Shown here piece by piece: positions 657-5,681 of a stretch of DNA of 6,136 nucleotides. Under the pieces are notes generated by a model. That model saw only the letters and a list, made by a program, of their open reading frames with translations, was not told the DNA's origin and did no database searches. Source of the stretch: a bacterium (lineage in GTDB: Bacteria > Coprothermobacterota > Coprothermobacteria > Coprothermobacterales > JAADFF01). Within the stretch, counting starts at the first letter, position 1; the number at the start of each line of letters is the position of its first letter. A program made the translations under genes and the position numbers. Location: contig JAMORD010000117.1 in assembly GCA_027063755.1 (NCBI GenBank), positions 1 to 6,136 on the forward strand. Reading direction: 5' to 3'.

Positions 657-1346
657 ATGAGTCCATGGTATGACATTATCAAAAGCGGAGACCCTGTATT
701 TGTATCTTATACCTCAGACAAATGGCATGGAGCATTTATGGGAAAAGCTGAAGTAATAGATGTATACAACATTACACTCCGTCCAGAGATAGGGGAAGCT
801 TTCATCAAAACAGGATTTGACTGCGATGTTATCGTAACATCGGTAAACGAAGAAAAAAGTTTCTATCTTACAGGTATAGTTTCTTTGCATGAAGATGGTA
901 TCACCAAGATTAGTATTAAGACCACGCCAATTGAATTAACACAACACCCTCCTGAACTTCACAGATTCTTGCTGGCAGGAAAACTAACAATTTTAGATAG
1001 TGAAGAAACCTTTGATATAGCTGTAAGAGCCATTGGTATCAATGGTTCCATAGGAATAGTACCCGAAAATCCATCAAGACTTTCAAAACACAAAGAGAAA
1101 GATATTATGATGTTTATGGAAGTACCTGTTGAGCAGGGAATATTTCAGTCTCTACTGAGGGGTAAGATAGAACATGTTATTAAATACCGGTATATGAAAA
1201 ACTGGAGTGAATTATACATTTCCTTTGTCCTCAGTGAACTTACCACTACATCTGTTCAACAAATAGCGGCAACATACAACAAACCCATCAAGGTAGATTT
1301 AACCCCTAAAAAAGGTGGTATACTTGGAAGGCTACTGGGCGGTTAA
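657..1346 (+). CDS. YcgR/YpfA-like PilZ-family protein with degenerate c-di-GMP motifs (tentative)
   Basis: A soluble 229-residue protein with no signal peptide or membrane helix, predicted to be rich in beta strand. Its layout resembles the two-barrel YcgR/YpfA proteins. An N-terminal barrel opens with G11-D12-P-V-F-V. A linker then carries H102-R103-F104 where the family has RRxxR, and a second barrel runs from about residue 105 to 195. Its I126-to-I134 stretch (IGINGSIGI) lies where PilZ domains have [D/N]xSxxG. A short helix (SVQQIAATY) and a basic, Gly-rich tail (TPKKGGILGRLLGG) close the protein. Known relatives bind cyclic di-GMP and act on the flagellar motor, but here the arginines and the D/NxSxxG motif are mostly lost, so ligand binding is doubtful. 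The assignment rests on pattern matching by eye; a protein of unknown function is the alternative. The last codons overlap the convergent DUF362 gene by 15 bp. Confidence 0.5.
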   Translation: MSPWYDIIKSGDPVFVSYTSDKWHGAFMGKAEVIDVYNITLRPEIGEAFIKTGFDCDVIVTSVNEEKSFYLTGIVSLHEDGITKISIKTTPIELTQHPPELHRFLLAGKLTILDSEETFDIAVRAIGINGSIGIVPENPSRLSKHKEKDIMMFMEVPVEQGIFQSLLRGKIEHVIKYRYMKNWSELYISFVLSELTTTSVQQIAATYNKPIKVDLTPKKGGILGRLLGG

Positions 1347-1359
1347 TCTGCCCAGTAGC
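1331..1359. terminator. 10-bp inverted repeat at the convergent gene junction
   Basis: Perfect arms GCTACTGGGC (1331-1340) and GCCCAGTAGC (1350-1359) flank a 9-nt loop, with an extra possible G-U pair outside. The hairpin contains the stop codons of both convergent genes (TAA at 1344-1346 on +, TAG at 1334-1332 on -). Its position suggests a bidirectional transcription or RNA 3'-end barrier. Neither side carries a U tract, so it is not a classical intrinsic terminator. Confidence 0.55.
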
Positions 1360-2261
1360 TCCGCATAAGCACTGTCAAGCCATCTCTTCATCAGGGTATA
1401 TTCTCTGTGTGGCTTAAAAGTGGTCTTTACATTATCTATATCTTCTCCGATAAACTCTACATCTCTAAAGTAAATATCGCCAACTCCCATCTTATACAGT
1501 GCATAAAGATATCCTATTTCAGTTGGAGCAAAGCCCATAGCATATGTGATAGCACTGTCAAGCTCCACAATATCATGAGAGGCAAACACCACACCCCATT
1601 CTTTGGCCGTTCCATAAACAGGTCCATCACCCTCCATAGCTACCGTGCCATCTACAATAGCCAAATCTGCACGCTTTCTCTTGGCAAGCATTGCTATATT
1701 GATATTGATAATACCATACCCCTGATGCACCTTTCCTTTATTGCGCCCCTTGGGTATAGCCATAGCAATATTCTTTAGTGCCAAAGTAACAATAACAGTA
1801 TCGTGGGTTTTAGGCGGTCCTACAGAAACTAGGTATGGGGCATTGACAAGATAGCCATTGAGGTATATTGTTTGAATACTCCTATCCCACTTAAAAATCT
1901 CAAATGGTATCTGAGGATTCTCTGTTTCACTAAGCTCCTCTATAGCCACAAGTTCCACCCACGAGTATTCCTTTAAGACATCTTTATACCCAAAGTTTTC
2001 CAGTGCATCTACGGTTCTTCCTACAGAAGATTCCTCAGCCACAGCAACATTTCTTACTCCCAGTTCCTTTAAGTGGTCAACCACAGCCTTTACAGCTATA
2101 GGATGAGTACATGCCAGTGGATACCTCACATCCACGAAATTGGGCTTGATAACAACAAGATCTTTGGGAATATTATGTCTCACCTTACTATGAAGTATAG
2201 CTAAGGCATCCCTTATAGCTTTATACCTATCCTTTTCTTTTACAATTGATATATATTTCAC
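1332..2261 (-). CDS. DUF362 domain-containing protein
   Basis: About 309 residues, almost entirely one DUF362 domain. Visible hallmarks, numbered from the upstream ATG at 2267, are VVIKPNF (38-44), THP (54-56), AEES (77-80), PPKTH (151-155), ALKN (163-166), HQGY (181-184), DGTVAMEGDGP (206-216) and a late ELDS (235-238). Many DUF362 proteins carry ferredoxin-type cysteine clusters. This one has a single cysteine (C53) and no Fe-S motif, so it is the short cluster-free form. The biochemical role of the family is not established, and none can be read from the neighbours, which lie on the other strand. Start choice: ATG at 2267 touches its SD directly (0 nt), whereas GTG at 2261, two codons in, sits 6 nt after GGAGG and is preferred. 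The start is head-to-head with the membrane-protein gene, and the 3' end overlaps the PilZ-like gene by 15 bp. The domain call is firm. Confidence 0.88.
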   Translation of the reverse strand: MKYISIVKEKDRYKAIRDALAILHSKVRHNIPKDLVVIKPNFVDVRYPLACTHPIAVKAVVDHLKELGVRNVAVAEESSVGRTVDALENFGYKDVLKEYSWVELVAIEELSETENPQIPFEIFKWDRSIQTIYLNGYLVNAPYLVSVGPPKTHDTVIVTLALKNIAMAIPKGRNKGKVHQGYGIININIAMLAKRKRADLAIVDGTVAMEGDGPVYGTAKEWGVVFASHDIVELDSAITYAMGFAPTEIGYLYALYKMGVGDIYFRDVEFIGEDIDNVKTTFKPHREYTLMKRWLDSAYAELLGRLTAQ

Positions 2262-2267
2262 ACCCAT

Positions 2268-2275
2268 CCTCCCTT
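2268..2275 (-). promoter_or_regulatory. Shine-Dalgarno site deciding the DUF362 start
   Basis: On the minus strand AAGGGAGG runs directly into ATG (2267-2265). With no spacer that ATG is a poor initiation site. GTG at 2261-2259 is 6 nt downstream of the GGAGG core, an ordinary spacing. The two starts differ by only two residues. Confidence 0.7.
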
Positions 2276-2285
2276 ATACTATAAA
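2275..2285 (+). promoter_or_regulatory. Possible -10 element(s) just before the membrane-protein ATG
   Basis: TATACT (2275-2280) and the overlapping TATAAA (2280-2285) lie 5 to 15 nt before the ATG at 2290. Either would start transcription within a few bases of the ATG, which fits the lack of an SD. A TTGATA at 2246-2251 is too far upstream (23-nt spacer) to be a normal -35 for TATACT. This is a weak prediction. Confidence 0.3.
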
Positions 2286-2289
2286 TGCT

Positions 2290-2727
2290 ATGGATATCAG
2301 GCATATTATAACAGTGTTCATTACCAGCCTAACCCCAGTGCTGGAGCTAAGAGGAGGCATGCTACTGGCGCGAAGTCTAAATCTACCATGGTGGGTATCA
2401 TTCCTTACATGCGTAATAGGTTCTACACTCCTGGGAGTGCTCACATTTTTCTTAGGAGAAATCATTATAAAAATACTAAAAATCATATTACCTAAGTATA
2501 TTGAAAAACTGGAAGAGAAAAAAGAAACACTCTCACAAAACTACGAAAAATGGGGATACACAGCACTTACCCTATTTGTAGGAATACCGCTACCAGGCAC
2601 CGGTGCATTCACCGGTGCCCTTATAGCTGGACTATTGGAATTTGATACCAAGAAAAGTATAATATCACTCCTCCTCGGAAATATCCTCGCCGCTTTCCTC
2701 CTCAGTCTCTTCTTCCTCATAAGGTAG
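2290..2727 (+). CDS. Small integral membrane protein, COG2426 / 'small multi-drug export protein' family
   Basis: A 145-residue inner-membrane protein. Family marks are E19-L-R-G-G23 after the first hydrophobic stretch and P100-LPGTGAFTGA110 in the middle of the second half. Hydrophobic segments fall at about 5-18, 34-66, 90-115 and 123-144, with a charged loop at 70-88 (KYIEKLEEKKET). The two halves place similar re-entrant-looking motifs, as expected of this family. The name 'small multi-drug export protein' is historical; the transported substrate is unknown. The ATG at 2290 gives the normal short N-terminus before ELRGG, but no SD precedes it and no other in-frame start fits, so initiation may be leaderless or SD-independent. 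The final helix is encoded opposite the acidic tail of the next gene in a 63-bp convergent overlap. Both flanking genes are on the other strand, so this is a single-gene unit. Confidence 0.85.
   Translation: MDIRHIITVFITSLTPVLELRGGMLLARSLNLPWWVSFLTCVIGSTLLGVLTFFLGEIIIKILKIILPKYIEKLEEKKETLSQNYEKWGYTALTLFVGIPLPGTGAFTGALIAGLLEFDTKKSIISLLLGNILAAFLLSLFFLIR
2596..2619. repeat. 10-bp perfect hairpin inside the membrane-protein gene
   Basis: Arms 2596-2605 and 2610-2619 (GGCACCGGTG / CACCGGTGCC) are perfectly complementary around a 4-nt loop CATT. The sequence is GC-rich within an AT-rich gene. It encodes the conserved GTGAFTGA motif (residues 103-110), and two in-phase copies of ACC-GGT-GC create both the direct and the inverted repeat. 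Protein repetition may therefore explain it entirely. Confidence 0.6.
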
Positions 2728-2916
2728 TTCTTCTTCCTCTTTTTCTATTTCTTCAAGAAGTTTCTCCCAATCTTCTTCATCCCAAGCAGGATCGGCAAGA
2801 TATATAACGGGTTCCTTTCCAGTAATAAATGCTACCGCAAGAAGACCAATAAACATCCAACCCACAAGCGCAGCAATACCATTGACAAAGCCAAATATCT
2901 TCTTAATAGAACGCAT
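2665..2916 (-). CDS. 83-residue single-span membrane protein with highly acidic C-terminal tail
   Basis: I do not recognise a family. The N-terminus is basic (MRSIKKIF). One hydrophobic helix follows at about residues 10-32 (VNGIAALVGWMFIGLLAVAF), then a short linker (KEPVIYLADPAW) and a tail in which 24 of the last 38 residues are Asp or Glu. The basic N-terminus before the helix suggests an N-in topology with the acidic tail outside the cytoplasm, although an uncleaved signal anchor cannot be told from a cleaved signal. The gene is credible because GGAGGTGAT, a near-perfect anti-SD match, sits 9 nt before the ATG at 2916. A TTG six bases upstream (2922) is only 3 nt from the SD and is rejected. 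The last 21 codons overlap the convergent membrane-protein gene in register. It is divergent from the phosphoesterase operon. A role in binding cations or a cationic partner at the membrane is speculation. Confidence 0.72.
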   Translation of the reverse strand: MRSIKKIFGFVNGIAALVGWMFIGLLAVAFITGKEPVIYLADPAWDEEDWEKLLEEIEKEEEELPYEEEETEEESGEDISEEE

Positions 2917-2970
2917 GTACAATCACCTCCGTATATTTCTTACTATAATAATACCATAGGGGGCGATGTA
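2917..2970. promoter_or_regulatory. 54-bp divergent intergenic region with candidate back-to-back promoters
   Basis: This short gap must hold the start signals of both the acidic membrane protein (-) and the phosphoesterase operon (+). On the plus strand TATAAT occurs at 2944-2949, 21 nt before the ATG at 2971. On the minus strand TATTAT (2953-2948) overlaps it. No convincing -35 box is seen for either. AGGGGG (2958-2963) is the SD of the plus-strand gene. Overlapping -10 boxes would make the two directions compete for polymerase. Confidence 0.4.
2924..2930 (-). promoter_or_regulatory. Shine-Dalgarno site of the acidic membrane protein
   Basis: Minus-strand GGAGGTG, continuing as GGAGGTGAT, lies with 9 nt between GGAGG and the ATG at 2916. 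It is the strongest evidence that the small, overlapping gene is translated, and it selects ATG over the upstream TTG. Confidence 0.85.
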
Positions 2971-3579
2971 ATGCTAAAAACAATAAAAAAGAAATTGCTC
3001 GGTATCCCTAACATACCAGACTATGCTATAGGAGGAATACTTCATATTAGTGATACACCACGACCTATATATAAATGGCTCAAATGTCTCATTGACACCG
3101 TAAACCCCGCATATATAGTACACACAGGTGATGTCGCAGATGACATTAAGCTGGAAAATGCTCCTGAAAGGTTAAAGGGGATATATAGAGAAGCTGTCAT
3201 TGAGATACGCAATATACTTACCAATTATTTATCAAATACTTACATTGTAGTAGGAAACCATGACAACGAAGAAATCTTATCTTCCCTTCTCCAACCTGCA
3301 AATATTATCAGAGAACCTTACCGTATAACATTGAACGGTATATCTTTCCTTCTAACCCATAAGCCTCCTACATGCACTGACGATGTAGATTTTATACTAT
3401 TCGGACACCAACCTACAGAACAAATACTGGAATCAAGTCGGTGTTTAAACGGCATACATAATATCCACATCATCGGGAAGAATAAAGATGTTTTTTATGT
3501 TCCCTATCCTAAGGGAACTAACAAATATAGAAAACTAAGATGGGGTGATGCAAATGATCTTATCCACAGAGGGCCCTGA
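2971..3579 (+). CDS. Calcineurin-like metallophosphoesterase, YfcE-like, with altered metal site
   Basis: A 202-residue single-domain protein. The metallophosphoesterase motifs appear in order: HISDTP (25-30, motif I), TGDVADD (52-58, motif II), GNHDN (95-99, motif III), LTHKPP (128-133, motif IV) and FGHQP (144-148, motif V). The family hydrolyses phosphomono- or phosphodiesters with two metals. Motif I ISDT resembles the ISDTHG of YfcE/MJ0936-type phosphodiesterases, but the metal-binding His is Pro30, and motif V has Pro148 in place of the second His of GHxH. Both lost residues normally bind metal 1, while the metal-2 ligands (N96, H130, H146) and bridging D54 are kept. The enzyme may use one metal, recruit another ligand, or act as a binding protein. 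No signal peptide is seen, so it is cytosolic. It is the first gene of a two-gene unit with the unknown protein downstream, whose start overlaps or abuts its stop. The fold call is firm; activity and substrate are unknown. Confidence 0.85.
   Translation: MLKTIKKKLLGIPNIPDYAIGGILHISDTPRPIYKWLKCLIDTVNPAYIVHTGDVADDIKLENAPERLKGIYREAVIEIRNILTNYLSNTYIVVGNHDNEEILSSLLQPANIIREPYRITLNGISFLLTHKPPTCTDDVDFILFGHQPTEQILESSRCLNGIHNIHIIGKNKDVFYVPYPKGTNKYRKLRWGDANDLIHRGP
3542..3549 (+). promoter_or_regulatory. Shine-Dalgarno candidate for the upstream start of the unknown protein
   Basis: GGGGTGAT pairs along eight bases with the anti-SD (one G-U) and lies inside the phosphoesterase gene, with 8 nt between its GGGG and the ATG at 3554. 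A second good site, AGAGGG at 3568-3573, precedes ATG 3581, which follows the phosphoesterase stop by one base. Both arrangements imply translational coupling. Confidence 0.55.
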
Positions 3580-4570
3580 TATGCTGTTTATCAGAGCACA
3601 ACATCCAAATGAAATATCCGAAAAACTTAAGAATTACAACTTAGATGAATATCGGACACCTGCACAAGCATTTGCAGAAGCAATTAGCACAAATACTATC
3701 GTATTCATAACTGAGTCCGATAAAGCCAAAACACGTATTGAAGATGCCTTACATACTTTTTTAGCACCATGGGGCAGTGACATAACTATTGCAAATCTTT
3801 TTAACAATGGCATTTTAAATGATGTTCCTCGTATAGATCTTGGACCTGGTATCATCTTCCTTAAAGCCATAAACGAAAAACATATATCTGCCCTCAAAGA
3901 CAAACTCATGGACCAACTCTATTCCCACAAGTTCCCTTTTGTCAAAGGAGTAGAAGTAGGTGAAATACAAGACACTATTGTGTATGTCACAACAGATAGT
4001 CTCTCCAGACCTGTTAATATTAGCTTAGACGAAGAAGTCATACTTGTCCACAGAGACAAGTATCTTACCAGCTCATTTCTTGAAAAGAATATCGTTAAGA
4101 TATTTATGGAGACAATATCAGAAGACGCACTGAAAGAACTGGGGATTACTATATACGATCATCACAATCTCTATGACCTGCAGAGACAAAGAATATATAC
4201 TGTTATCACAGACCTAAGTCTTGGCTTTATTGTTGGAGAACGCTTTACTACAGATAGCCCTCGTTTTCTTATGAAGATTATTGTCTATCTTATAAAACTA
4301 CTTACCCCTGAGGATATACAGAAAATCAAATGGTATATGATGGGTCTGGAGTTTTTAGAAAACGGCGAAAGAATATGTGATATTGATATCTTATATAGGG
4401 GCAAGAAAATTTCATGGAGAGACCTTGACGGCATAGACCATACAGGCAGAAAAGAACATATTGCACTGCAAGCAAGAGAAGAACTCATGTCTACACTCTC
4501 CGACGAAGCCCGTGAACACCTTAGCCGTCTTGATGAGAAGATTGCCCAGAAGATTCGTGCTCTTTCCTGA
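3554..4570 (+). CDS. Protein of unknown function, about 338 residues, coupled to the phosphoesterase
   Basis: I do not recognise this protein. It appears soluble and mixed alpha/beta, without signal peptide, Walker motif or cysteine cluster (C275 is the only cysteine). The first part alternates strands and helices (TIVFITESDKAKTRIEDAL at 48-66, GIIFLKAIN at 99-107). A middle part has strand-like segments (DTIVYVTT, EEVILVH) and a YDHHNLYDLQ stretch (201-210). The end is helical and charged (TPEDIQKIKW, then AREELMSTLSDEAREHLSRLDEKIAQKI), possibly a coiled coil. D-x-D (276-278) and nearby histidines (296, 302) could bind metal but match no known motif. Starts considered were GTG 3545, ATG 3548, ATG 3554 (chosen, SD GGGGTGAT) and ATG 3581 (SD AGAGGG, 1 nt after the upstream stop). 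Tight coupling suggests it works with the phosphoesterase. The last 50 bp overlap the convergent rarA gene, out of register. The gene is certain; its function is open. Confidence 0.8.
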   Translation: MILSTEGPDMLFIRAQHPNEISEKLKNYNLDEYRTPAQAFAEAISTNTIVFITESDKAKTRIEDALHTFLAPWGSDITIANLFNNGILNDVPRIDLGPGIIFLKAINEKHISALKDKLMDQLYSHKFPFVKGVEVGEIQDTIVYVTTDSLSRPVNISLDEEVILVHRDKYLTSSFLEKNIVKIFMETISEDALKELGITIYDHHNLYDLQRQRIYTVITDLSLGFIVGERFTTDSPRFLMKIIVYLIKLLTPEDIQKIKWYMMGLEFLENGERICDIDILYRGKKISWRDLDGIDHTGRKEHIALQAREELMSTLSDEAREHLSRLDEKIAQKIRALS

Positions 4571-5681
4571 TAATTTTCAATCGTTCTTTCATCTTCTTTT
4601 CATAGCCGGCCTTAAACACAACAAGGTCGGCTTTTTCTATCTCATAGGGCATATACCTCTGCTGCACCCATCCGCCATAGGCATGAGGATATTTATATCC
4701 ACTACCCTTCCTATTGGTAAGATGCCTGGGCACCGATACTGTTGAATATTTTTCCAGCAACTCGCGGGTGTTTTTAATAATTTCCAATGTGGCATTTGAC
4801 TTTGGTGCTGTGGCTAGATATACTGCCGCCTGCACTAAGAAATACAAGGCTTCAGGCATACCAACATGTTCCACAGCATACATAGCACTGGTGGCAATTT
4901 GAAGAGCCCTTGGATCTGCATTGCCTATATCTTCAGATGCCAGTATTACCAGCCTTCTGGCTACATATTCTGGTGCTCCTCCACCTTCTATAAAACGCAT
5001 AAGATAATAAACACCTGCATCGGGATCACTACCTCTGATACTCTTTATCATGGCAGAAATAACATCATAAAACTCATCTTTGTCTGCCACACCACCACCC
5101 GATATGGTGTCATCAAGCACTCCTGTTTTATGCCATAGCATAAGAAGATTCTGAAGCCTTCTGATATCACCATCGGCCGAGCGTATGAGAATATTGGCAA
5201 CATCATCGGGCACATCTATATTCAGTTTCACCTTAAACATATCCAGAAGAGCTTTCATCTCTGAAAAAGATAAAGGTTTAAACTCAATAAGCACAGAACG
5301 GGACCTTAGCGGTGGAATAAGCATCTTCCACGGATTCTCCCATGAGGCACCTATAAGTATAAGTCTTCCCTCTTGTATAGGTATGAGAAGACTATGTTGA
5401 GCCGTGCGGTTTAGCCGTGATATCTCATCTATAAAAAGAAGAACATTGCCAAATCTAAGAATCTTGTCAAGCTCAGCCTTGGAAAAACGGCTTCCATCCA
5501 TTTGAAAATATAAGGCGCCACTCTCCTTGGCAAGGAGAGTGGCAGCCGTTGTCTTACCAACACCAACAGGGCCATAGAGAATAATAGACCTTATTCCACT
5601 GCTAAAAGCCCCTTTTAAGAGCTTAATGGCCTTTTTGTTACCAACAAACTCGGTCCAATCTTTCGGCTGAAACTCCTTCAT
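4521..5681 (-). CDS. rarA: Replication-associated recombination protein A (RarA/MgsA), AAA+ ATPase
   Basis: A 386-residue clamp-loader-like AAA+ ATPase acting at stalled replication forks. Motifs in order: Walker A GPVGVGKT (37-44), Walker B LLFIDEI (81-87), sensor 1 GASWENPW (111-118, usually GATTENP), arginine finger LRSRS (125-129), sensor 2 GDIRRL (171-176), then the RarA-specific ASEDIGNADP (248-257) and the C-terminal YKYPHAYGGWVQQRYMP (329-345). The last two separate it from clamp-loader subunits and RuvB. It is shorter than the usual roughly 420-450 residues, mainly through a brief N-terminus starting almost at the FVG motif. The ATG at 5681 has GAGAGGG (5699-5693) 11 nt upstream. The nif3 stop lies 3 nt before the start, so the two form an operon. 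The tail (HESSGQSSHQDG) is unlike the family and lies within the 50-bp overlap with the convergent unknown gene. Confidence 0.95.
   Translation of the reverse strand: MKEFQPKDWTEFVGNKKAIKLLKGAFSSGIRSIILYGPVGVGKTTAATLLAKESGALYFQMDGSRFSKAELDKILRFGNVLLFIDEISRLNRTAQHSLLIPIQEGRLILIGASWENPWKMLIPPLRSRSVLIEFKPLSFSEMKALLDMFKVKLNIDVPDDVANILIRSADGDIRRLQNLLMLWHKTGVLDDTISGGGVADKDEFYDVISAMIKSIRGSDPDAGVYYLMRFIEGGGAPEYVARRLVILASEDIGNADPRALQIATSAMYAVEHVGMPEALYFLVQAAVYLATAPKSNATLEIIKNTRELLEKYSTVSVPRHLTNRKGSGYKYPHAYGGWVQQRYMPYEIEKADLVVFKAGYEKKMKERLKIIRKEHESSGQSSHQDG
5517..5543. repeat. 27-nt palindrome (13-bp perfect arms) inside rarA
   Basis: Arms 5517-5529 and 5531-5543 (GCCACTCTCCTTG / CAAGGAGAGTGGC) are perfectly complementary around one central base (5530). 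The element covers exactly rarA codons 47-55, just after Walker A, so codon n from one end is the reverse complement of codon n from the other (GCC/GGC, ACT/AGT, CTC/GAG, CTT/AAG). It could extrude as a cruciform or fold into a stable mRNA hairpin near the start of rarA. Confidence 0.75.

Follow-up and report, generated by a model that had tools for sequence, protein, structure and literature searches.

Among 1218 convergent overlaps of at least 5 bp surveyed in 58 prokaryotes, 33% had phase (123:321), and the phases of the convergent overlaps of E. coli fit stop-codon mutation as their origin (PMC2174442). Antisense overprinted genes, laoB and asa, have been described in E. coli O157:H7 (PMC5810103, PMC6294744), and homology of the family PF06695 to DedA has been reported (PMC7818093). 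The locus described here lies in a stretch of bacterial DNA of 6,136 nucleotides, analysed as a whole and called the window below. It shares its orientation and codon phase with the convergent overlaps of the survey, but it sets a transmembrane helix opposite a Glu-rich tail and one of its partners is a genus-restricted small protein. As in the published accounts of laoB and asa, as far as these go, a small gene occupies the antisense strand of another; here, however, the two genes meet in their 3' ends only, and three quarters of the small one are free of overlap. The likeness of the larger protein to the PF06695 / DedA (VTT) superfamily consists in its PF06695 match, its helices around conserved loops and its long last helix, whereas its C-terminus, about five residues shorter than those of relatives from the phylum, is a difference that would fit some remodelling of this end of the protein. 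The best explanation of the locus is a real convergent gene pair with dual-coding 3' ends, in which an old plus-strand gene and a younger, genus-restricted minus-strand gene are both constrained (probability roughly 0.87).

Table 1. Coordinates of the overlapping genes and of their features in the window.
Feature	Position	Strand	Basis or remarks
Tail-to-tail coding overlap, 63 bp, codon register, phase (123:321)	2665..2727	both	ORFs and comparison
Plus gene: membrane protein, PF06695 (Sm_multidrug_ex, COG2426-type), DedA/VTT-like core, 145 aa	2290..2727	+	Pfam, AlphaFold2, congener
Plus-gene codons 130-134	2677..2691	+	Inside overlap; include G130 and A134
Minus gene: small acidic membrane protein (predicted), 83 aa	2665..2916	-	ATG 2916, stop 2665; N-terminal TM helix, short helix and Glu-rich tail, predicted disordered
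Shine-Dalgarno sequence of minus gene, GGAGGTGA	2923..2930	-	6 bases upstream of ATG; same letters in congener G001, contig C72

The plus protein matched PF06695 with a Pfam E-value of 8.3e-29 and 101.1 bits, above the gathering score of 30.7; its match to PF09335 stayed below threshold. All residues that are invariant among the relatives are present (P16, E19, R21, G22, P100, L101, P102, G105, G109, G130 and A134); two of them, G130 and A134, do not vary in 34 PF06695 relatives or in the relatives from the phylum. In the AlphaFold2 model (mean pLDDT 91) short helices flank the conserved loops and a long helix stands at the end. Since this confident model places the last helix at residues 120-144, the overlap encodes most of the last helix of the plus protein. 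A profile search of PDB sequences with the plus family found no relative, and the genome contigs, when first scanned with the plus protein alone, gave no match. No Shine-Dalgarno sequence is evident for the plus gene in 2274-2292, and TATACT lies about ten bases upstream of the ATG; to judge from this position, the transcript might be leaderless. A perfect hairpin (GGCACCGGTG / CACCGGTGCC) is present at 2596-2619 within the plus gene, over the conserved PLPGTGAFTGA motif.

The minus gene is probably translated. A TTG at 2922 is a possible alternative start, the ATG being better placed. The AlphaFold2 model of the minus protein, which is of low confidence, starts with an N-terminal helix (residues 3-32), continues with a short helix at 47-62 and finishes in an unstructured tail, to which the overlap belongs, suggesting that the protein may cross the membrane once and carry a disordered acidic tail. 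The acidic stretch starts outside the overlap. No family in the family databases matched the minus protein above threshold, and among the 386 genomes searched the protein is present in two only (G000 and G001). At none of 50 other PF06695 loci was the minus gene seen; an ORF scan found long antisense frames at some of these, none of which resembles the acidic protein. Searches of phages and plasmids returned nothing. A match on a viral contig (L022) was discarded as spurious, there being no matching ORF, and weak matches in G174, G208 and L020/L021 were set aside, as they sit within much longer frames, those of G174 and G208 being unrelated. A terminator-like site was sought in 2200-3050 and none was found.

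The preliminary description had reported a 63-bp tail-to-tail overlap in exact codon register. This proved correct: each strand reads 20 sense codons and a stop, the codon boundaries coincide, and the two opposite-strand genes have common 3' coding sequence, making this a convergent dual-coding overlap. Leu in the plus gene is encoded by CTC in eight of eight cases inside the overlap and in three of 22 elsewhere in that gene. When the last 19 plus residues were recoded at random with the codon usage of the window, the antisense register was open in only 5% of trials; the open trials had a mean of 2.9 Asp plus Glu and none reached 11, against 12 observed. An open and acidic antisense frame is thus well beyond chance for this plus peptide and, as recoding is rarely open and never as acidic, the antisense frame has been kept.

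When antisense codons are aligned, second positions pair with second positions, and NTN (hydrophobic) codons always lie opposite NAN (polar) codons. Here, GAA and GAG (Glu) of the minus strand lie opposite TTC and CTC (Phe and Leu) of the plus strand, and GAT and GAC (Asp) opposite ATC and GTC (Ile and Val). The hydropathic complementarity, which had been presented as a special natural case, is a consequence of the genetic code once codons are aligned in this way, and the odds of the register itself are about one in three. The acidity of the tail does not come from complementarity alone: it needs C-ending Leu and Phe codons, and a silent change in a plus CTC codon would turn the opposite minus codon into one for Lys or Gln or into a stop. 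These codons, and with them the acidity, are maintained by selection for Glu on the minus protein.

Comparison with G001, a genome of the same genus, shows that both genes are kept, with an overlap of 57 bp in which both frames are open. The G001 minus frame stops two codons earlier, which indicates that the last two Glu residues are dispensable, and the two plus codons past this stop have changed silently (CTC to CTT and CTC to CTA), an illustration of what silent change in plus CTC codons does to the opposite strand. The intergenic region including the minus-gene Shine-Dalgarno sequence is nearly identical in G001, where contigs C78 and C72 abut. The minus protein is identical at 78 of 81 residues (96%), without a single difference over residues 28-81, and the plus protein is 78% identical. 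Base identity is 51/54 in the common part of the overlap, 77% in the plus-only part and 86% in the minus-only part. Outside the overlap, Nei-Gojobori estimates gave w=0.153 for the plus gene and w=0.017 for the minus gene (dN 0.020, dS 1.18 over the 63 non-overlapping codons), values that come from two genomes only and from a dS near 1. The common 54 bp differ by three substitutions, ATC to GTC, TTC to CTC and TAG to TAA, all silent in the minus frame, with no minus replacement. In the plus frame they give two conservative replacements, I to V and F to L, and a change within the stop codon. With Glu and Asp of the minus strand opposite Phe/Leu and Ile/Val, silent changes in the acidic tail appear in the helix as mild substitutions between hydrophobic residues, and both observed replacements are of just this type. 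No silent change was found in the plus sense codons of the overlap (0 in 13.2 silent sites), in line with the earlier suggestion that the antisense tail constrains the choice of helix codons. Of the checks proposed with that suggestion, the comparison with a relative turned out in its favour, and the finding named as its refutation, a relative with free plus codons and a minus frame broken or lacking its Shine-Dalgarno sequence, is not what G001 shows.

How selection acts on these codons was examined by simulation, with parameters drawn from the same two genes. Constraint on the plus frame alone gave no run without a minus replacement in 4000, whereas both constraints together fit the observed class of substitutions (P about 0.65). 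Constraint on the minus frame alone produced this class with P=0.0045, and predicted about seven plus replacements against the two observed (P=0.008 for two or fewer); it is thus modestly rejected. A reading in which selection in the overlap acts on the minus protein only, leaving the plus C-terminal helix to vary freely and hydrophobic merely through the code, draws on the silence of all three changes on the minus strand and on the second half of the helix, which is simple in sequence (FLLSLFFLIR) and ends about five residues before the phylum relatives. Given the simulated excess of replacements and the family-invariant G130 and A134 within the overlap, this reading is unlikely. Purifying selection on both frames is what the two genomes point to, the minus frame appearing to be held more strictly. 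Because only two genomes carry the pair, the estimates of selection in the overlap rest on few substitutions.

That the minus frame is a chance antisense ORF, with the plus gene alone of importance, might be argued from its lack of a family match or of a relative outside the genus; but the substitution pattern of the minus-only region speaks strongly against it, as do the conserved Shine-Dalgarno sequence, the 96% protein identity and the missing silent plus changes, and this can practically be dismissed. A physical or regulatory relationship, either a sense-antisense (proteomic-code) interaction of the two proteins or regulation of the DedA-like protein by the acidic one, would accord with the adjacency of the genes, their joint conservation in two genomes and the prediction of both products as membrane proteins. 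Leu and Phe lie opposite Glu by virtue of the code, however, and so give no evidence of interaction; moreover, the genes are on opposite strands with starts in different intergenic regions, and relatives of the plus gene occur without the minus gene, making such a relationship very unlikely. The bolder proposal, in which the acidic protein would act on the DedA-like protein as a new functional partner or regulator and shared codons would lock the genes together, is about as doubtful.

Other convergent overlaps occur nearby. One of 15 bp at 1332-1346 is likewise in codon register and is 15 bp long in G001 too. At 1331-1359, across this overlap of genes 657-1346 (+) and 1332-2267 (-), lies a perfect 10-bp inverted repeat (GCTACTGGGC / GCCCAGTAGC), conserved in G001 and not followed by a T run, which may be a two-way transcription terminator. 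A third overlap, of 50 bp at 4521-4570 and not in codon register, joins genes 3545-4570 (+) and 4521-5681 (-, MgsA-like); it measures 53 bp in G001, where it is highly conserved. The MgsA-like gene also contains a perfect 13-bp inverted repeat with a 1-base gap (5517-5543). As a baseline, a simple ORF caller applied to stretches of G001 totalling 862 kb returned 66 convergent pairs, of which 13 overlap, with 68, 53 and 33 bp as the greatest lengths; the count is a lower bound, because the caller missed the plus gene studied here. The codon register is an ordinary one-in-three outcome, and dual coding at the locus is well supported, such an overlap being an ordinary feature of a compact bacterial genome.

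Which protein came first had been left open, and can be answered in part. The plus gene is very probably the older, because its helix carries family-invariant residues found family-wide and the minus protein is found in two congeneric genomes only; relatives with the older gene lack the minus one, as is characteristic of a young, overprinted ORF. It is also possible that the minus gene was lost elsewhere or diverged very fast instead of being young. In the favoured reading of a constrained convergent pair, an old DedA-like membrane protein gene ending in a transmembrane helix would have been entered from the opposite side by a younger small membrane protein gene, whose Glu-rich tail would be completed by the 18-20 shared codons. 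The overlap probably arose when a stop codon was lost or shifted, the usual route for convergent overlaps. The register would be tolerable in that silent changes in the acidic tail only exchange one hydrophobic residue of the helix for another.

Overall, the overlap illustrates cleanly and on a small scale how one set of codons is constrained by two proteins; with the antisense codons aligned, an acidic tail and a hydrophobic helix are able to evolve side by side. It lends no support to a general rule of interaction between sense and antisense peptides. The analysis does support an unnamed small protein, strongly conserved, which could escape routine annotation, and the remaining interest lies in the function of this acidic membrane protein.
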